From an uncultured delta proteobacterium (GTDB taxonomy: Bacteria > Myxococcota_A > Polyangia > Polyangiales > Polyangiaceae): DNA of 64,000 nt. The position numbers and the translations under genes are program-made. Shown one piece after another: positions 52,316 to 61,159 of this stretch. Location of the stretch: positions 1-64,000 of the forward strand of contig CAIVJW010000007.1 in assembly GCA_903906315.1 (NCBI GenBank), in the 5' to 3' direction. Position 1 is the stretch's first letter. Every line of letters starts with the position of its first letter. The notes under the pieces were generated by a model. That model did no database searches. It had not been told where the DNA came from and saw only the letters and a program-made list of their open reading frames with translations.

Positions 52316-53869
52316 TCAGCCCGCGGGCGGGCTCGAGGTATTGCGCGGTGCCGCCGGGGCCAGGGTGGCCCAGTCCGTCGCGTCGTCGCCGGTCGTGCCG
52401 CAGTTGCCCGCCGCGCCGCCGGGCTTGCGCTCGATCGCGACGTCGCTGTTGCTGGCGGCGCTGGTCGCGTCGTTGTGCGGCAGGTTCGACGCCGGCGTGC
52501 CGTGGCACGTGAAGCCCTTCGCCGGGTCGACCAGCTCGGCTGCGGTCGCGGCGTTGTACGAGTAGCAGACCGCGTCCACGACGACGCCCGAGTGGAGGAG
52601 CCGCAGGCCGGCCGCGTCCTTGATGCCCGTCGTGAGCGCCGCGTCGGACTTCGTGGCGCCCGCGTACGCGCCGCCCGTCACGAGGAAGTGACCGTGGCTC
52701 GGGATCACCCCTCCCGTCCCGAGGTAGCGCGTCGTGTAGTTGGCGGTGCCCGGGCTGCGCGAGTCGATCGTCCAGGCCTTGTCGAGCGTGATCGCGCTCG
52801 AGGTGGGGTTGTAGATCTCGACGAACTCGTCGGACGCGAGCGCCGCGCCGCGCGATCGGATCTGGCTGAGCACCAGGTGATCGCACGCGCAGCCGGGCTG
52901 GCAGGCGCACGCGCTCTGCGAGCAGTTGGCCGTCGCGCAGTCCGCGGCCTTCGAGCACGCCTCGCCGACGTCGCACTTGCTCGCGCACGCGCCGCCGCAG
53001 TCGACGTCCGTCTCGTCGCCGTCCTTGAGGCCGTCGGTGCACGTCGGGGCGCACGTGCCGCCGGTGCACTTGCCGCCGGCGCAGTCGGAACCGATCGAGC
53101 AGAGCTTGCCGAGGGCGCAGGGCGAGCACGCGCCACCGCCGCAGTCGACGTCCGTCTCGGCGCCGTTCTTCTTGCCGTCCTTGCAGCTCGCCGCGACGCA
53201 CAGGTGCGTGTTGCCGTCGCAGACGCCGCTCGGGCAGTCGACGGCGAGGACGCACTCGACGCACTCGCCGCCGGCCATGCACACGCTGCCGCCAGCCTGG
53301 TTGCAGGCGCTGCCGGTGGCCTTGGGGGCGTGCTGCGGGACGCCCCCCGAGCAGCCCTCGACGGTGCACTGCTTGCCGTCGTCGTCGGGGAGGTTCGCGT
53401 CGTCGTCGAGCACGGTCTGCCCGCCGTCGCCGTCGCAGACCACCTGCTGGCAGGTGCCCTGGGTCTGGGGGCCCGCAGGCGTGCCCTTCGCGACGTCGTC
53501 GACCCCGCACACCGACTGCACGCACGTGCGCGTCGAGCAGACCGAGTCCGACCCGGGACAGTCGTCGACCGTCCCACAGCCACCGCTGCCGCCCGTGCCC
53601 TGCCCGCCGGTGCCCTGCCCGCCCGTGCCCGTCCCGCCGCTGCCGGTCGACGTCGCGCCGCCTTGCCCCGCGCCTCCGCCCTGCCCCGCCCCGCCCGATC
53701 CGGTGCTCGAGCCCGCGCCGCCCGAGCCGTGCGTCGTGGTGCGCTTGCCCGTCGATCCGGTGAGGAGCGAGGCGTCGTACACCGAGCACGCCGGGATCGC
53801 GGCCAGCGTCGCCAGGGCGGCGATCGACAGGCCGAGGACGGGGCGACGACCGCTCGTTCGCATGGGCAC
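52316..53869 (-). CDS. Cys-rich lipoprotein with lamin-tail (LTD) domain
   Basis: 517 residues from GTG 53869 (or ATG 53863); a TACGGT box ends 5 nt upstream. The lipobox IPAC and a long Gly/Ser/Thr linker (about 35-100) lead to Cys-rich repeats, including two copies of DGxKNGxETDVDCGG-like motifs (DGKKNGAETDVDCGG, DGLKDGDETDVDCGG). The C-terminal part (about 335-500; LVLSQIRSRGAALASDEFVEIYNPTS is split across it) is an LTD domain. It should be a surface-displayed binding protein. It is divergent from the S41 operon. Confidence 0.85.
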   Translation of the reverse strand: MPMRTSGRRPVLGLSIAALATLAAIPACSVYDASLLTGSTGKRTTTHGSGGAGSSTGSGGAGQGGGAGQGGATSTGSGGTGTGGQGTGGQGTGGSGGCGTVDDCPGSDSVCSTRTCVQSVCGVDDVAKGTPAGPQTQGTCQQVVCDGDGGQTVLDDDANLPDDDGKQCTVEGCSGGVPQHAPKATGSACNQAGGSVCMAGGECVECVLAVDCPSGVCDGNTHLCVAASCKDGKKNGAETDVDCGGGACSPCALGKLCSIGSDCAGGKCTGGTCAPTCTDGLKDGDETDVDCGGACASKCDVGEACSKAADCATANCSQSACACQPGCACDHLVLSQIRSRGAALASDEFVEIYNPTSSAITLDKAWTIDSRSPGTANYTTRYLGTGGVIPSHGHFLVTGGAYAGATKSDAALTTGIKDAAGLRLLHSGVVVDAVCYSYNAATAAELVDPAKGFTCHGTPASNLPHNDATSAASNSDVAIERKPGGAAGNCGTTGDDATDWATLAPAAPRNTSSPPAG

Positions 53870-53970
53870 GACGCACCGTACCGCGGCGCCGGAGCGCTGA
53901 GAAGGAGCCGCTCACGCGGTGGAGCCCCGCTCGACGTCGGAGGAGCGCTGCGGTAGGGGTCGAGGCCAAC

Positions 53971-56007
53971 ATGCTCGCTTTCCCTCGGCGAAGACGTCCC
54001 TCGACCCTCGTCGCGCTGACGATCGGAGCGCTCGCGGGCAGCCCCTCCGCGGCGCTCGCCGGCACGTTCGCGGGCGACGGCGCGTTCTCCTTCGACGCCC
54101 GCGCTGCCGCCACGCTCGACTTCGAGGAGCCCCTGCAGCCGGGATCCGGCGGCAAGGTCACCAAGGACGACGGCGCGCTCTCGGGCGCGAGCGTGCTCGT
54201 GCTCGGCGCCTACGGCCAGGTGTCGCTGCCCGTCGAGCTGCCGAAGACCGCGCGCACCTACCGGCTGCGGCTCTGGGCGCGCGGCGGCGAGGTCGTCGGC
54301 GGGCTCGAGCTCGCGTACGGCACGCCGGGCCGGACGGACGACGTCGCCGCGCTCTACCCCACCGGCCGCGTCACCAGCGACGGCTGGGTCGAGCTCGGCA
54401 ACGACGGCGTCGCCGTCGACGGCGCGCGGCTGGTCGGCGCCAACGTGAGCGCGTTCGCCCCGGGCGGCGCCGCGGTCGACGCCATCGAGATCGTGCCCGA
54501 GGGCGACCTCGTCGTGCCGGGCGGCGCGCCCAACCCCGCCTGCGGCGGCGCGACGGACCCGCTCTCCTGCCGCGCCGGACAGATGTGCCTCTGGAGCGAG
54601 TGCCGCGACACGGCGACCTGGGTGCCGCCCATCCCGGCCGACCGCGACGACGTCGCCGCCTACCTCGCGAGCCGGCTGCATTTTCTGTTCGGGCCCGACC
54701 TCGAGCGCAAGGTCGACATGCCCGCCGTCGACGCGGCGCTCGAGCAGATGCGCCTCGCACAGGATCGCTGGGCGTACTGGGGCGGTTTCCTGCTCGCGGT
54801 GCGGCGCCTGCACGACGGGCACACGACGACCAACAGCATCGCCGACTACGTGATGCGCAACCCGCGACCGATCGCGGTGTGCTTCCTCGAGGGCGACGCG
54901 GACCTCACGCACGGCGCCGCGCCGAAGGACCCGGGCTACCTCGACGTGATCGTCTCGCACGTGGGCGGCGACCACACGCTCGGCCTGCACGCGGGCGATC
55001 GGCTCGTCGCGGTCGACGGCATGCACCCGATCGCGTGGGCGCGGTCGCTCGTGGCGGTCAACACCTCGCAGCCCGGCATCTCGAACCACACGACGTACGC
55101 CGAGCTCGCCTCGACGCTGCGCGCGACGATCTCCCGCTTCGCGCGCACGATCGACGTCGTGCGCTGCGACGCCGGCACCGGGTCGTGCGGCGCGGTGGAG
55201 CGCCTCGCCATCGACGAGCTGCCGATGGACGCGCCGAGCACGCCGGTCGACAACGTCGTCTGCGACAACCGGCCGCTCCGGCACCTGCCGGGCGCGCCCG
55301 CCGATCACGCGATCGGCGAGGCGATCTACCGGGGGCTCGTGATCGGCGCCGATCCCGCCGAGAAGGTCTACGGGATGGAGTGGGAGTCGCTGATGACGCT
55401 CGGCAACGACGCCCTCGGCGGCGAGCTCGAGGCCGCCGTCGCGTCGTGGCGCGCCGACGCGCGCGGCGTCATCCTCGACCACCGCACCGGCAACGGCGGC
55501 ACGATCGTCGGGCCGCAGATCCTCTGGAGCTTCGGCGTGCCGCAGCACGCGAGCGACCACTACGTCGACCGGGCGGGCGCCGAGGACGAGCTGCCCGCGA
55601 TCGAGGACGGCAAGGCGATCTTCGACGCCGCGGTCGCCGCCGGCACCGTGGGCTACGCGGGCACCGCGAACCCGAACACGAAGGTGCCCGTCGCGCTGCT
55701 GCTCACGCAGGACGTCTCGGCGAGCGACTGGCTTCCGCTCGGCATGAAGGGCGCGCCGAGCACGAAGCTCTTCGCCCCGTTCCAGACCAACGGCGGCTTC
55801 TCGACGCGCTACTCGTTCGGCTACTGGCTCGGCCTCGGGTACGTGGTGGCGGTCGGCGACACGTTCGTGCCCGACGGCAGCACGCACAACGGGCGCGGCG
55901 TCGAGCCGGACGTCGTCGTCCTGCCGAAACAGTCGGATCTGCTGGCCGGCAAGGACACGGTATTCGAAGCCGCGCTCGCGTGGGTGCGGGGAGGGCTCGC
56001 GCCGTGA
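53971..56007 (+). CDS. Secreted S41-family peptidase A
   Basis: 678 residues. Signal peptide 1-30 (AALA/G). A beta-rich N-terminal domain (35-180) and a small Cys cluster (190-211) precede the S41 module: helical RLHDGHTTT (279-287), a PDZ-like part (LHAGDRLVAVDG, 339-350), RGVILDHRTGNGGT (498-511), nucleophile Ser583 in VSASDW, and the family-typical GVEPDVVVLP near 643. The general-base Lys of Prc/CtpA is not obvious. It is exported to the periplasm or outside. It opens a four-gene overlapping operon and is paralogous to the protein at 56867. Confidence 0.88.
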   Translation: MLAFPRRRRPSTLVALTIGALAGSPSAALAGTFAGDGAFSFDARAAATLDFEEPLQPGSGGKVTKDDGALSGASVLVLGAYGQVSLPVELPKTARTYRLRLWARGGEVVGGLELAYGTPGRTDDVAALYPTGRVTSDGWVELGNDGVAVDGARLVGANVSAFAPGGAAVDAIEIVPEGDLVVPGGAPNPACGGATDPLSCRAGQMCLWSECRDTATWVPPIPADRDDVAAYLASRLHFLFGPDLERKVDMPAVDAALEQMRLAQDRWAYWGGFLLAVRRLHDGHTTTNSIADYVMRNPRPIAVCFLEGDADLTHGAAPKDPGYLDVIVSHVGGDHTLGLHAGDRLVAVDGMHPIAWARSLVAVNTSQPGISNHTTYAELASTLRATISRFARTIDVVRCDAGTGSCGAVERLAIDELPMDAPSTPVDNVVCDNRPLRHLPGAPADHAIGEAIYRGLVIGADPAEKVYGMEWESLMTLGNDALGGELEAAVASWRADARGVILDHRTGNGGTIVGPQILWSFGVPQHASDHYVDRAGAEDELPAIEDGKAIFDAAVAAGTVGYAGTANPNTKVPVALLLTQDVSASDWLPLGMKGAPSTKLFAPFQTNGGFSTRYSFGYWLGLGYVVAVGDTFVPDGSTHNGRGVEPDVVVLPKQSDLLAGKDTVFEAALAWVRGGLAP

Positions 56008-56870
56008 CGAACGCGATCGCATCGATCGGCGCGGCGGCCCTCGTCGCCGCGCTCGCAGGCTGTGGCGGGGGCGAGAGCCTCTCGCCGCGCGACGGCGCGA
56101 TCGCCGTGACGCCGGACGCCTCGGCGCCGACACCGGACGCCGGCGGCGAGGACGCGGGCGCCGACGTGCCCGATGCTTCGGCGCCCGCGGACGCCGGCGC
56201 GAAGAAGCGCGAGGTCTTCGAGCGCAACCCGTTCGGCAACGTCGCCGCGCGCGACAACCTGCTCTGGGACGGCGATTTCGAGTGGTCGAGCGCGTTCTCG
56301 GATCAATACGGGTGGATCAACGTGCCCATCACCTCGCTCACCTTCACCGGCGTGCGCGTCGGGCCCGAGTGCCGATCGGGGCTCAAGTGCGCGGCCGTGA
56401 AGAAGGGCGGCGGCCTCGTCGGCATCGCGGTCACCTCGCGGGGGCAGGAGCTCGCGGCGAGCGTCTGGGCGAAGCCGACGAGCGCGAACGCGAGCCCGCC
56501 GTCATGCACGAAGATCACGGCGTTGCTCACGTCGAACGGCGGGACGGACGCGGACGCGGTCCTGCCGCCCGACGCGGACGCGCCGGACGCGTCGGGGTGG
56601 TGCCACTTCGCCGTGATCGCGCCGCCGCGAAGCGACAAGCCCTACCTCTACCTCCAGAACGACACGGGCGCGGAGCTCGTCGTCGACGACGCGGTGATCG
56701 TGCGCGCGCCGGTCGAAAAGGTGCACACGTTGGAGATCCGCCCGCCGACCCAGGACGAGGTCGCGGCGCACGCCACGCTCGTCGCCGAGCTCGCGAAGCT
56801 GCCGCGCGGCCCGCACGATCCGCCCCCGAACGCCGCGCGCCGCGCCGTCGAGCGCCGGGGGGCGCCGTGA
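56004..56870 (+). CDS. Lipoprotein A, partner of S41 peptidase A
   Basis: 288 residues from GTG 56004, overlapping the peptidase A stop (GTGA). Lipobox LAGC, then an Asp/Ala/Pro linker and a globular domain (about 75-240): ARDNLLWDGDFEWSSAF, VGPECRSGLKCAAVKKGG, WCHFAVIAPP and ELVVDDAVIV. This order resembles carbohydrate-binding (CBM/galactose-binding-like) jelly rolls. The same layout returns in the lipoprotein at 58978. Role unknown; anchor, inhibitor or substrate of the peptidase are all possible. Confidence 0.82.
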   Translation: MTNAIASIGAAALVAALAGCGGGESLSPRDGAIAVTPDASAPTPDAGGEDAGADVPDASAPADAGAKKREVFERNPFGNVAARDNLLWDGDFEWSSAFSDQYGWINVPITSLTFTGVRVGPECRSGLKCAAVKKGGGLVGIAVTSRGQELAASVWAKPTSANASPPSCTKITALLTSNGGTDADAVLPPDADAPDASGWCHFAVIAPPRSDKPYLYLQNDTGAELVVDDAVIVRAPVEKVHTLEIRPPTQDEVAAHATLVAELAKLPRGPHDPPPNAARRAVERRGAP

Positions 56871-58981
56871 GGCCGACCACGACGTCCGCGGCGCGCGCGA
56901 TCGCCGCCGCGTGCGCGATCGGAAGCCTTCTCGCGAGCGGCCCCGCGCGCGCCGGGTCGTTCGGGCCCGACGGCTCGTTCGTGGCCGATCCGGCCGCCGT
57001 CGCCTACGTCGACTTCGAGACCGCGCCGACGCGCTGGCTCCCCGAGGGAGGCGATCCGCGCTGCCGCGCGCTCGGCTTCGCGATCGAGCCGCGCGAGGAC
57101 GCGCTCGATGGCGCGTCGGTCGCGCACCTCACCGCGGCGCAGGGGTGCTCCGAGCGGCTCATGGCCTACCTCCCGCACGTGGAGGCCTCGTACCGCGCGA
57201 GCGTGTGGATGCGGCACGGGTCGCTCAACGCGCAGCTCGTGGCCATCTACCAGGACGGATCGGGCGCGGCGCCGACCGTCGCGAAGCTGCTGCCCACCGG
57301 CCGCGTGACCAGCGACGGCTGGGTCGAGCTCGCGTCGAACGACTTCCCCGTCGACGGCCCGAACCTCCGGCACGCGTACCTGCGCGTGGCCGACTACGCG
57401 GGCGTCGACGGCGCCGAGATCGACGCGCTCGAGATCGTGCCATCGGGCGAGTTCGTCGCGGCGCGGTCGTGCGCCGGCCACGGTGACGCGAGCTGCGGAG
57501 CGGAGCGCCAGTGCGAGTGGGGCCAGTGCGTGCTGCCGCGCCTGAACCTGCCGCCGCTGCCCGCCGACGCGGTGCGCGGCCCGGTCGTCGACGTGCTCGC
57601 GTCGCAGATGCGCCTCTTCTTCGGCGGCCACCGCACGCGCGCCGAGGCGCTGCCGAAGGCGCTCGCGTGGGTCGAGGCGATGCGCGTGGCGCCGACCGCG
57701 ACCGCGTTCTGGGGCGCGTGGGGCCGCGGCGTGCGGGAGCTACACGACTGGCACACGCACGCCGACGCCGGCATCGGCGGCGGCATCCCGCAGGCGCACC
57801 GGCTGAACGCGTGCTTCCTCGAGGGCGACGCCGACGCGAGCCACTCCGCCTGGCCGAAGGACCCGCGCTACGCCGACATCCTCGTGTCCCACGTCGGCCC
57901 GGTGTCCGGCGGCCTCCAGGCCGGCGACCGGCTCGTCGCGGTCGACGGCAAGCACCCCATCGAATGGGTGCGGTCGCTCATCGACGTCTACTGGGGCCTC
58001 TGGCAGGCGTGCGACCCGACGATCTTCGCCGAGGCCGCCGAGCGCCTCGGCGGGCCGGCCTGGGGCGGCGGCGGGCTCATCCTGCGCTACGCCAAGACGA
58101 TCACCGTCGTGCGCTGCGACGCCGCGAAGGGCACCTGCGACGACGTGCCGACGACGATCGCCGTGGCCGATCTGCCGAACGACGGCGGCGGCTACGACGT
58201 CTACTGCGACAACCGCCCGTTTTATCACCTCGAGGAGGGCAAGGGCCCCGACCCGGCGAACCACTACGGCCTCTGGTGGCAGGTGTTCCGCGGCCGCATC
58301 AAGGACACGACCGAGGAGGAGGCCATCTTCGGGATGGCCTGGGACTCGCTGATGGGCGGCGGCGATCCGAACGGCCACATCAACTCCGAGATCAGCGCCG
58401 CCATCACCGACTTCAAGGCGAACGCGCGCGGCGTCATCCTCGATCACCGCGCCGGCAACGGCGGCACCATGGACGCGGCGTCGAACCTGACGCGCCTCGT
58501 GCGCCCGCCCGAGGCGGTCGCGGCCGTGCGCATGCCGATGGAGATCGCCGGCTACGATGGGCCCGCGGACGCCGAGGCGGGCAAGGCGATCTTCGACGAG
58601 TGGGTCAAGACCAGCGGCTACTACGTCGGCGACGCCGACTACGCGCCGGACCTGCCCGTCGCGCTCGTCCTGCACCGCGACGGGTCGGCCAGCGACTACA
58701 TGCCGTTCGGCATGAAGGGCGCGCCGAACGTGCGGCTCTTCGGCCCCCACGCGACGGCCGGGGGCTTCTCCACGTTCATCCAGTTCGAGTACTGGCAGGC
58801 GATCTCGTTCCAGCTGGCCTCGGGCGAGACCATCGCGTTCGATGGGCGCGGGCTCATCGGCCACGGCGTCGAGCCGGACGAGGTCGTGCTGCCGAGGCAG
58901 TCGGATCTGCTGGCCGGCAAGGACACGCTGCACGAGGCCGCGCTCGCGTGGGTTCGCGCCAACCTGAAGGGGGCGAAATGA
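56867..58981 (+). CDS. Secreted S41-family peptidase B
   Basis: 704 residues from GTG 56867, overlapping the lipoprotein A stop. Signal peptide (about 1-30), beta-rich domain, Cys cluster, then the S41 module: ELHDWHTHAD, LQAGDRLVAVDGKHP, ARGVILDHRAGNGGT, Ser607 in GSASDY, and GVEPDEVVLPRQSDLLAGKD. Shared blocks with peptidase A include TGRVTSDGWVEL, CFLEGDAD and FGMKGAP-type segments, so the two are duplicates. An additional Gly/Trp-rich loop (GGPAWGGGGL) is specific to B. The coding frame extends upstream inside lipoprotein A, but the GTGA overlap and signal peptide fix the start. Confidence 0.88.
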   Translation: MRPTTTSAARAIAAACAIGSLLASGPARAGSFGPDGSFVADPAAVAYVDFETAPTRWLPEGGDPRCRALGFAIEPREDALDGASVAHLTAAQGCSERLMAYLPHVEASYRASVWMRHGSLNAQLVAIYQDGSGAAPTVAKLLPTGRVTSDGWVELASNDFPVDGPNLRHAYLRVADYAGVDGAEIDALEIVPSGEFVAARSCAGHGDASCGAERQCEWGQCVLPRLNLPPLPADAVRGPVVDVLASQMRLFFGGHRTRAEALPKALAWVEAMRVAPTATAFWGAWGRGVRELHDWHTHADAGIGGGIPQAHRLNACFLEGDADASHSAWPKDPRYADILVSHVGPVSGGLQAGDRLVAVDGKHPIEWVRSLIDVYWGLWQACDPTIFAEAAERLGGPAWGGGGLILRYAKTITVVRCDAAKGTCDDVPTTIAVADLPNDGGGYDVYCDNRPFYHLEEGKGPDPANHYGLWWQVFRGRIKDTTEEEAIFGMAWDSLMGGGDPNGHINSEISAAITDFKANARGVILDHRAGNGGTMDAASNLTRLVRPPEAVAAVRMPMEIAGYDGPADAEAGKAIFDEWVKTSGYYVGDADYAPDLPVALVLHRDGSASDYMPFGMKGAPNVRLFGPHATAGGFSTFIQFEYWQAISFQLASGETIAFDGRGLIGHGVEPDEVVLPRQSDLLAGKDTLHEAALAWVRANLKGAK

Positions 58982-59841
58982 GCGCCCGTGCGACGTTCAA
59001 CCTCGCGATCACGGCGATCGCGATGGCGGCCTGCGGCGGCACCGAGGCCGGCGTGAGCCCGCTCGCGACCGCGCCCGACGCGGCGGCGCCCGCACCCTCG
59101 GCCAGCGCGGTCCCGACGGCGACCCCCTTCCCCGACGCGGGCGGCGGGTCGGGCGGGCCGCTCGCGGACGCCGGCGTGCCTCGGCGCACGGTCCGGCTCG
59201 TGAACCCGCTCGGCGGACCGGCGGGCAACCTCTTCGTCGACGGCGACCTCGAGTTCTCGACGCTGCCCGCGGGGTCGAGCGGGCAGTTCGGCGTGATCGG
59301 CTTCGACACGGGCGGCGCAGGCGCGAAGGCGTTCGCGGTCGAGACCGGCGGGCTCTGCAAGAGCGGGCTGCACTGCGCGGTGATGGACCGCAAGATGATC
59401 CTGTTCTTCCGCGGCGCCGCGGCGAGCCTCGGGCAGGGCGCGATCGTCCGCCTCGCGGTCAAGCCGCCCGCCGACGAGACCTGCAACGTGGTCACCTCCG
59501 TGCTCGTCTCGTGCGACACCCAGGCGGTCGTGAAGAAGCTCGCGGCCCCGCCCGTTCGCGACGCCGCGGGCTGGTGCGAGCACGCGGCGGTCGTCCCGCC
59601 TCGCGACTTCGGCCTGTGCCTGATGGTCAAGAGCACCCTGCCGGTCGACCGCACGGCGCTCGTCGACGCCGCCCGGCTCGTGCCGGACGACGGCACCGTG
59701 AGCCCGGAGACGGGGGAGATCTGGGTGCCCGACGCGGAGACGGCCTCGCAGCTGCGCGGCCTCGGCGACCACCTGCGGCGCACGATGCCGATGGGGCGCA
59801 CGCCGCCGACGGGGCCGCGGGCGGTCGACGCCGATCTCTAG
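58978..59841 (+). CDS. Lipoprotein B, partner of S41 peptidase B
   Basis: 287 residues from ATG 58978, overlapping the peptidase B stop (ATGA). Lipobox AAC, an Ala/Pro/Ser linker, then NLFVDGDLEFSTLPAG, GGLCKSGLHCAVMDRK, WCEHAAVVPP and TALVDAARLV, which follow the same order as in lipoprotein A (DGDFEWS, CRSGLKCAAV, WCHFAVIAPP, VVDDAVIV). So the lipoprotein gene was duplicated together with the peptidase gene. It ends the operon. Confidence 0.83.
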   Translation: MSARATFNLAITAIAMAACGGTEAGVSPLATAPDAAAPAPSASAVPTATPFPDAGGGSGGPLADAGVPRRTVRLVNPLGGPAGNLFVDGDLEFSTLPAGSSGQFGVIGFDTGGAGAKAFAVETGGLCKSGLHCAVMDRKMILFFRGAAASLGQGAIVRLAVKPPADETCNVVTSVLVSCDTQAVVKKLAAPPVRDAAGWCEHAAVVPPRDFGLCLMVKSTLPVDRTALVDAARLVPDDGTVSPETGEIWVPDAETASQLRGLGDHLRRTMPMGRTPPTGPRAVDADL

Positions 59842-59896: not shown

Positions 59897-61159
59897 ATGC
59901 TCGACCGCGAAGAGACCGCGACCGCCGCGTTCGCCATGGTGGGGCTGCCGGCGCGCGGCAAGACGTACGTCGCGCGCCGCGTGGCCCGCTACCTCTCCTG
60001 GCTCGGCCACCCGACGCGCGTCTTCAACATCGGGGCGTACCGCCGCGAGAAGTACGGCGCCTACCAGCCGCACGAGTTCTTCGACCCCGACAACCCGGTC
60101 GGCCACGGCGCGCTGCTCGAGCTCGCGATGCTGGCGCTCGACGACATGCTCTCGTGGCTCGCCGAGCAGCCCGGCCGCGTCGGCATCTACGACGCGACCA
60201 ACAGCACGCGCGAGCGGCGGCGCATCGTGCGCGATCGCTGCAAGAAGGCCGGCATGCCGCTCGTCTTCATCGAGTCGATCTGCAACGACCCCGCGGTCAT
60301 CGACGCGAACGTCCGCGAGACGAAGATCAGCTCGCCGGACTACCGCTTCATGGAGGCCGAGGACGCGATGCGCGATTTTCGATCGCGCATCGCCCACTAC
60401 GAGCGGGCCTACGAGCCCATCAGCGACACGTCGAAGAGCTACATCAAGATCATCGACGTCGGCCGGCAGGTGGTGCTCAACCGCATCCACGGCTACCTGC
60501 CGGCGCGGCTCGCGCCCCTGCTCATCAACCTCCACGTCGCGCCTCGGCCCATCTACCTGACGCGCCACGGCGAGAGCATGGCCAACGGCGAGGGCACGCT
60601 CGGCGGCGACTCCGACCTCACGCCGCGCGGCGAGGCCTACGCGCGATCGCTCGCGCGGTTCATCTCGAGCGCGGGGCCCGAGGGGCGCGTCACGGTGTGG
60701 ACGAGCCGCCTCAAGCGCACCGACCAGACCGCGGCGCCGCTCGGCAGGAGGACGCGAGCGTGGCGCGCGCTCGACGAGATCGACGCCGGCATCTGCGACG
60801 GCAAGACCTACAACGAGTGCAAGGCGGCGATGCCCGACGAGTGGGCGGCGCGCGCCCGCGACAAGTTCCACTACCGCTACCCGCGCGGCGAGTCGTACGA
60901 GGACGTCATCCAGCGCCTCGACCCGGTCGTGATCGAGCTCGAACGGCAGCGCGACCCGGTCCTCGTCATCGGCCACCAGGCCGTGCTGCGGATGCTTTAT
61001 GCGTACCTGATGGACAAGCCGCCGCAGGAGTGCACGCGGGTGTCCATCCCGCTGCACACGGTGATCCAGCTGACGCCCACCGCGTACGGCTGCGAGGAGC
61101 GGCGGTTCCAGCTCGACCCGCAGCTGCCGGTCGAGATCGCGACGCGCGCGTCGGGGTGA
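59897..61159 (+). CDS. Bifunctional 6-phosphofructo-2-kinase/fructose-2,6-bisphosphatase
   Basis: 420 residues. The kinase half has Walker A GLPARGKT (16-23), FNIGAYRR and YDATNS (98-103), as in eukaryotic PFK-2. The phosphatase half is a histidine-phosphatase domain with TRHGES (222-227, catalytic H224), E293 in DEIDAGICDG and H359 in VIGHQAV. It would make and break fructose 2,6-bisphosphate, a glycolytic signal best known from eukaryotes. No signal peptide; cytoplasmic. It stands alone, 56 nt after the S41 operon. Confidence 0.93.
   Translation: MLDREETATAAFAMVGLPARGKTYVARRVARYLSWLGHPTRVFNIGAYRREKYGAYQPHEFFDPDNPVGHGALLELAMLALDDMLSWLAEQPGRVGIYDATNSTRERRRIVRDRCKKAGMPLVFIESICNDPAVIDANVRETKISSPDYRFMEAEDAMRDFRSRIAHYERAYEPISDTSKSYIKIIDVGRQVVLNRIHGYLPARLAPLLINLHVAPRPIYLTRHGESMANGEGTLGGDSDLTPRGEAYARSLARFISSAGPEGRVTVWTSRLKRTDQTAAPLGRRTRAWRALDEIDAGICDGKTYNECKAAMPDEWAARARDKFHYRYPRGESYEDVIQRLDPVVIELERQRDPVLVIGHQAVLRMLYAYLMDKPPQECTRVSIPLHTVIQLTPTAYGCEERRFQLDPQLPVEIATRASG

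Follow-up and report, generated by a model that had tools for sequence, protein, structure and literature searches.

A duplicated two-gene module pairing an S41 peptidase of predicted Ser-His type with its own lipoprotein in Myxococcota

A stretch of DNA of 64,000 nucleotides (nt) from an uncultured delta proteobacterium of the Polyangiaceae (contig CAIVJW010000007.1, positions 1 to 64,000, referred to here as the window) carries a cassette of four co-directional genes on the + strand at positions 53971-59841. These encode, in order, an S41-family peptidase (peptidase A), a lipoprotein (lipoprotein A), a second peptidase (peptidase B) and a second lipoprotein (lipoprotein B). The four genes, their coordinates and the short overlaps that join them were all found as described in an initial annotation made from the sequence alone, which had also proposed that a two-gene unit was duplicated as a whole and that each peptidase has a lipoprotein dedicated to it. 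The pairing of the two proteins, its history and its possible function were analyzed using related genomes, family profiles and predicted structures. The genes and their junctions are as follows.

53971..56007, + strand: peptidase A (unit 1), secreted, S41 family; 678 amino acids (open reading frame, Pfam S41 match and AlphaFold2 fold)
56004..56870, + strand: lipoprotein A (unit 1); 288 amino acids, GTG start; no Pfam or NCBIfam family
56867..58981, + strand: peptidase B (unit 2); 704 amino acids, GTG start; Pfam S41 at 2.6e-9, PDZ_6 at 0.0012
58978..59841, + strand: lipoprotein B (unit 2); 287 amino acids, lipobox MAAC
56004..56007, + strand: GTGA overlap, stop of peptidase A and start of lipoprotein A (read from the sequence)
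56867..56870, + strand: GTGA overlap, stop of lipoprotein A and start of peptidase B (read from the sequence)
58978..58981, + strand: ATGA overlap, stop of peptidase B and start of lipoprotein B (read from the sequence)

Across almost its whole length, peptidase A is 42% identical to peptidase B (BLASTP, E 1e-135), and lipoproteins A and B share 33% identity over 204 residues (BLASTP, E 2e-16), in agreement with the homology first proposed for both. The near-identical DNA reported at the 3' ends of the two peptidase genes was also present, as 30 identical nt encoding QSDLLAGKDT, but it is no evidence of duplication: the motif is conserved family-wide, the codon is also identical in 76% of the residues that peptidases A and B have in common, and the chance of an identical run of 10 codons at this site is ~6% (0.757^10). 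Recent duplication or gene conversion, considered on the basis of this 3' identity, was rejected, as protein conservation and codon bias account for it.

Homologues were collected by three overlapping approaches. With peptidase B as query, 18 of 59 related genomes proved to contain the family. Scanning genome contigs for a pattern gave nine loci, some of them already known from that search, and a phylum-wide search of 379 genomes with a peptidase profile added further loci. The deduplicated set contained 38 close peptidase genes from 22 Myxococcota genomes; one peptidase locus (L134 and L135) is split between two contigs of one genome and was assumed to be a single gene. A lipoprotein homologue was found on the same strand directly downstream of all 38 close peptidases, one of these pairs being joined across two contigs. 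At 33 of the 38 peptidase–lipoprotein junctions, stop and start overlap by 4 nt with an in-frame start codon, and the remaining five stand at -26, -1, +7, +13 and +18. Orphan lipoproteins were sought with a lipoprotein profile in 74 genomes (59 + 15), which gave 33 strong matches, 32 of them downstream of such a peptidase. For the last, the upstream gene is invisible because its start lies 102 nt from a contig end, and no proven orphan was found among the 33; weak matches to the profile (below ~27 bits) cover the signal peptide and linker only. As a control, the four other S41 genes of the window's genome were inspected, all of the Ser-Lys kind, and none has a coupled lipoprotein. The dedicated pairing put forward in the initial annotation is well supported by these genomic data.

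The tandem two-unit cassette occurs at 11 loci in 11 genomes, and at nine of these (8/10 besides the window) the start of the second peptidase overlaps the first lipoprotein by 4 nt. The peptidase tree separates the 11 first-unit genes from the 11 second-unit genes, single units falling on either side of the divide; in the lipoprotein tree, all 11 first-unit lipoproteins fall within one clade of 13 (95/100) that has zero second-unit members. Rooting the peptidase tree on a distant clade (described below) placed all second-unit genes in a clade (99) free of first-unit genes, and left unsettled whether the first-unit peptidases form a clade (p-AU 0.045, approximately unbiased test). No mixing of unit 1 and unit 2 partners was seen on either tree, and because both separate the units in this way, they are most simply explained by a single ancient event that duplicated the two genes together; duplication as a unit had been suggested in the initial annotation. 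Two loci that share flanking genes with the two-unit loci (L044 and L131) lack unit 1 entirely, with no detectable remnant, which fits joint loss of both genes.

The initial annotation had also suggested comparing the trees of the two partners, and had named frequent unpaired lipoproteins or discordant trees as evidence that would speak against a dedicated pair; both checks turned out in favour of the pair. Peptidase and lipoprotein tree distances were correlated with r = 0.78, the maximum in 5000 permutations being 0.28, a congruence to be expected from joint inheritance alone as well. The two trees have 21 of 34 splits in common. When the other peptidase was controlled for, peptidase 2 showed a partial r of 0.51 with lipoprotein 2 and of -0.01 with lipoprotein 1. 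One genome (G023; loci L049, L054, L056 and L060) holds the pair five times at four sites, complete in each case, and the module therefore expands as a unit.

For assignment of the peptidase, a combination of family models, a predicted structure and residue conservation was used. The Pfam S41 model (PF03572) scored peptidase A at 26.4 bits (5.9e-6) and peptidase B at 37.3 bits, weakly above the cut-off of 24, and 30 of 32 peptidase homologues matched it at E 0.01 or better. In the AlphaFold2 model of peptidase A (predicted local distance difference test score, pLDDT, 90.8), residues 215-678 resemble S41 peptidases, the best match being 4ghn (Z 25.3, root-mean-square deviation (rmsd) 3.6 over 358 residues). 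The N-terminal part resembles carbohydrate-binding modules (CBMs). The features of the two peptidases are listed below.

54094..54504, + strand: CBM-like beta jelly roll, N-terminal in peptidase A (amino acids 42-178); VIA-align Z 11.5-12.1 to CBM16, CBM22 and a porphyran-binding CBM
54541..54603, + strand: Cys cluster of peptidase A (C191, C200, C206, C211); invariant in 38/38 close and all scorable distant homologues
54820..54822, + strand: His284 of peptidase A in the LxDxH(T/S) motif, proposed general base; 38/38 close and 12/12 scorable distant homologues
55420..55920, + strand: S41 catalytic core of peptidase A (PF03572 match)
55717..55719, + strand: Ser583 of peptidase A in the S-A-S-D motif, proposed nucleophile; 38/38 close and 14/14 distant homologues
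57752..57754, + strand: His296 of peptidase B (LHDWHT), equivalent to His284 of peptidase A by alignment
58685..58687, + strand: Ser607 of peptidase B (SASD), equivalent to Ser583 of peptidase A by alignment

Four further invariant Cys residues at 304, 399, 406 and 431 of peptidase A complete an eight-Cys pattern. The general-base role of His284 is proposed by comparison with Ser-His S41 enzymes. Carboxy-terminal processing (CTP) peptidases (S41A: Prc, CtpA, CtpB) have a Ser-Lys(-Gln) active site; that of CtpB is Ser309-Lys334-Gln338, with Lys 25 residues after Ser (PMC3808539). Position Ser+25 is an invariant Gly in the 32 peptidase homologues, and none of them has a CTP-type Lys at alignment columns 606-612. 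Ser-Lys CTP catalysis was rejected on account of this invariant Gly where CTP enzymes have Lys. The curated CTP model TIGR00225 scored peptidase B at 11.6 bits, against a cut-off of 218.6, and did not match peptidase A; no NCBIfam model scored above cut-off for any cassette protein. Residue 630 (Asp in peptidase A) is acidic (D or E) in every scorable homologue, making Asp630 a candidate, if unproven, third catalytic residue, and no conserved Glu, the acidic third residue of Tricorn/CPAF-like S41 enzymes, was found near G643-V644 in the peptidase homologues. On the basis of the invariant Ser and His, which those enzymes use in their active site, the peptidase is predicted to have an S41 core of the Ser-His rather than the Ser-Lys type. 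A PDZ-like stretch gave a weak Pfam signal (the PDZ_6 match of peptidase B listed above), and none of the 32 peptidases matched a Pfam CBM family model.

The structures most similar in fold to the catalytic half are those of the Bacteroidetes S41 peptidases 4ghn, 4l8k and 8vcb (Z 25.3, 20.9 and 19.3, respectively), of which 4l8k also has a C-terminal xDxxxGxDTxxEAA block in common with the myxobacterial peptidase; these structures differ in having no CBM-like N-terminal domain and no eight-Cys pattern in the aligned range. CPAF of Chlamydia, a Ser-His type S41 enzyme, likewise matches the catalytic half (Z ~20), but at 12% identity and with another N-terminal part, and we know of no lipoprotein partner of CPAF.

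Three features of lipoprotein A, in order from its N terminus, bear on how it might be anchored and what it might bind.

56061..56063, + strand: lipobox Cys20 of lipoprotein A (LAGC) with Gly at +2, from the sequence; Cys present in at least 90% of 32 homologues
56208..56237, + strand: segment R-x-V-x-x-R-x-P-F-G of lipoprotein A (amino acids 69-78) at the junction of linker and jelly roll; proposed peptidase-docking motif, on the basis of conservation
56250..56711, + strand: CBM4/16-like jelly roll of lipoprotein A (amino acids 83-236); VIA-align Z 12-13, rmsd 3.0 over 133-139 residues to CBM4-2, CBM16 and others

Gly at +2, with no inner-membrane Asp signal, points to the outer membrane by the rule established in other Gram-negative bacteria. 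The AlphaFold model of the lipoprotein has a pLDDT of 76.8 and a disordered linker, and besides the lipobox Cys the family has four invariant Cys residues (32 homologues). R69 is invariant in 32/32 close lipoproteins, and the R-x-[LIVM] core recurs in 13/13 distant ones; amino acids 61-80 have a mean pLDDT of 64-68 and no predicted secondary structure. We propose that the R69-G78 segment may serve in docking the peptidase. A helix is predicted at the C-terminal end, which also has a basic Pro-rich tail, and C termini are unconserved among homologues. By predicted fold, both the lipoprotein (Z 12-13) and the N-terminal domain of the peptidase (Z ~12) resemble the CBM4, CBM16 and CBM22 modules. 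No Pfam CBM match was found in the 32 lipoproteins, nor did any of these match a tetratricopeptide repeat (TPR) model of Pfam. Profiles of the lipoprotein and of the peptidase N-terminal domain aligned with E 0.003-0.006 and an hhalign probability of just 6-9%, for which reason their likeness is claimed as a shared fold only.

A distant sister clade of S41 relatives (L061-L068 and L136-L138; mostly 170-240 bits with the profile), beyond the reach of the single-protein search, keeps the eight-Cys pattern and the Ser and His residues. A lipoprotein of like layout lies downstream of 13/13 genes of this clade, although a contig end cuts one of these lipoproteins short. Most of these 13 lipoproteins are missed by the close-clade profile, but a profile built from them recovers all 32 close ones, and the two profiles align with an hhalign probability of 97.5% (E 7.8e-12). 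No lipoprotein of this kind adjoins two still weaker S41 matches, L116 and L139. In other Myxococcota families, remoter S41 genes (L140, L141, L154-L159, L163 and L166) have a different lipoprotein-like gene at or near their stop. This second type is LolA-like by eye, with for example the motif WWKGGDFYxxQTxxGxGxxRxGKxGDVIWxEDPINGLRxLxG, and the one example checked had no Pfam match. Several S41 peptidases coupled to it appear, again by eye, to carry a lipobox of their own.

Peptidase and lipoprotein very probably work together. The statement in the initial annotation that no system of this composition had been described was too strong, as two comparable systems had been overlooked. In Escherichia coli, the outer-membrane lipoprotein NlpI brings Prc, an S41 periplasmic PDZ peptidase, to the membrane and its substrate (PMC5686067), and in Pseudomonas aeruginosa the outer-membrane lipoprotein LbcA tethers and activates the S41 peptidase CtpA (PMC8764530). 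In both, the lipoprotein tether promotes peptidase activity on cell-wall hydrolases (PMC5686067, PMC8764530). Prc (6iqu_B, Z 14.4) and CtpA (Z 14-15) are among the fold matches of peptidase A, and the myxobacterial lipoprotein resembles NlpI and LbcA in its lipid anchor and export signal, as predicted from the lipobox Cys. Prc differs in its Ser452-Lys477 dyad, that Lys being absent from the myxobacterial peptidase and the His invariant, and CtpA is a hexameric Ser-Lys CTP. NlpI is an all-helical TPR protein and LbcA an 11-TPR spiral, whereas the myxobacterial lipoprotein is a predicted beta jelly roll with no Pfam TPR match. The genes nlpI and prc are not known to be neighbours, nor are lbcA and ctpA known to be adjacent. 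Since the lipoprotein is unrelated to the TPR adaptors and the peptidase is not of the Ser-Lys type, the comparison is one of function, not of membership. What is new relative to NlpI–Prc and LbcA–CtpA is an unrelated, translationally coupled lipoprotein belonging to no Pfam or NCBIfam family; in the literature searched, no pair of an S41 peptidase and a lipoprotein was found in myxobacteria or with a CBM.

With moderate confidence, we regard the lipoprotein as a dedicated outer-membrane docking or activating partner of the S41 peptidase, a reading in which we infer the binding, location, activation, docking motif and substrate. The cassette would then represent a two-gene module in duplicate, its copies having diverged and each producing through translational coupling, at a fixed ratio, a Sec-exported and disulfide-rich S41 peptidase together with its own lipoprotein. 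Anchored in the outer membrane by its Cys and a flexible Ala/Pro/Asp linker, the lipoprotein would present the conserved Arg segment and the CBM-like jelly roll so as to dock the peptidase at the envelope, where the docked enzyme might be positioned or activated for its substrate. Its action would be analogous to that of NlpI for Prc and LbcA for CtpA, through an unrelated lipoprotein. S41 peptidases that need a lipoprotein partner have so far been a matter of two well-studied bacteria, both with TPR adaptors. If the present reading is true, a coupled lipoprotein that is unrelated to these adaptors and retained throughout a deep S41 clade would indicate that such control evolved repeatedly. 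With pairs A and B in one operon, the cassette would offer a genetically simple system for partner-specificity swaps, and a lipoprotein family lacking a Pfam or NCBIfam entry gains a functional hypothesis.

Several observations weigh against a docking or activating partner. Conservation of the pair and agreement of the trees are also expected from mere operon linkage. Partner specificity is weaker in unit 1, with a partial r of 0.71 with its own lipoprotein and of 0.61 with the other. Where an S41 enzyme coupled to the LolA-looking type seems, by eye, to be lipid-anchored in its own right, there would be no need for a second anchor.

Three other roles for the lipoprotein were considered. It is unlikely that the lipoprotein is an inhibitor shielding the cell's own envelope from the peptidase. 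PopD, which partners a protease of a different family, is thought to inhibit PopC in Myxococcus, and two-gene protease–partner units are known in myxobacteria; stoichiometric co-production from a 4-nt overlap would suit an inhibitor, and peptidases lacking their lipoprotein were never encountered, in line with a toxic effect of losing it. Inhibitors are, however, often encoded before the protease or alone as protection, and neither pattern was seen, while the lipoprotein fold is that of a binding module and the conserved disordered segment has no obvious substrate-like sequence. Secretion of PopC in myxobacteria is treated in PMC6434023. We find it quite unlikely that the two jelly rolls bind the same envelope or prey glycan side by side and without contact, with coupling setting only their ratio. 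Although CBM16 and CBM22 are among the best fold matches of the lipoprotein as well as of the N-terminal domain of the peptidase, and the two profiles align weakly at the E values given above, the jelly-roll fold alone is no proof of sugar binding and the hhalign probability of that alignment is low. Moreover, the region of highest conservation in the lipoprotein takes in the segment outside the jelly roll, and inspection of the flanking-gene clusters found no conserved carbohydrate gene beside the pair.

The least probable role, and in our view an improbable one, is that of a dedicated substrate processed or released from the surface by the peptidase. S41 enzymes process C termini, and both a PDZ-like region on the peptidase and the predicted helix and basic tail on the lipoprotein would accommodate this, but the lipoprotein C termini are unconserved, unlike tails read by PDZ domains, and the presence of such a substrate in all genomes could be accounted for only by an uncharacterized general preference.

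Extending the docking or activating reading to a class of envelope proteolysis across Myxococcota is possible but more tentative. Each disulfide-rich Ser-His S41 peptidase of the clade would there be docked and activated by a lipoprotein of its own, from a new jelly-roll family whose fold may derive from the same fold as the peptidase N-terminal domain; duplicated modules would act as insulated pairs, and the second, unrelated LolA-looking lipoprotein might fill this role for other S41 enzymes of the phylum.

The surroundings of the cassette were also inspected. A gap of 55 nt follows it, and then a gene for a bifunctional 6-phosphofructo-2-kinase/histidine phosphatase at 59897-61159 on the + strand (PF01591 1.9e-73, PF00300 1.6e-39), which was not found to be a conserved neighbour of the pair at other loci. 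Upstream, the divergent gene at 52316-53869 on the - strand encodes a Cys-rich lipoprotein-like protein with a match to the lamin-tail domain (LTD) just under cut-off. Long open frames run antisense to the peptidases (53764-59841, opposite strand) and recur in homologous loci; they need not be genes, as such frames are expected from coding sequence of high G+C content. Clustering of flanking open reading frames at 27 loci revealed no universal third gene and synteny at the lineage level only, the recurrent neighbours being LipB-like and response-regulator genes in 4-5 loci and a small downstream gene in 6. Elsewhere in the window's own genome (contig C181, L153:4258-5478), a Tox-PAAR-like domain (PF13665) is fused to an S41 peptidase domain, perhaps as cargo of type VI secretion.

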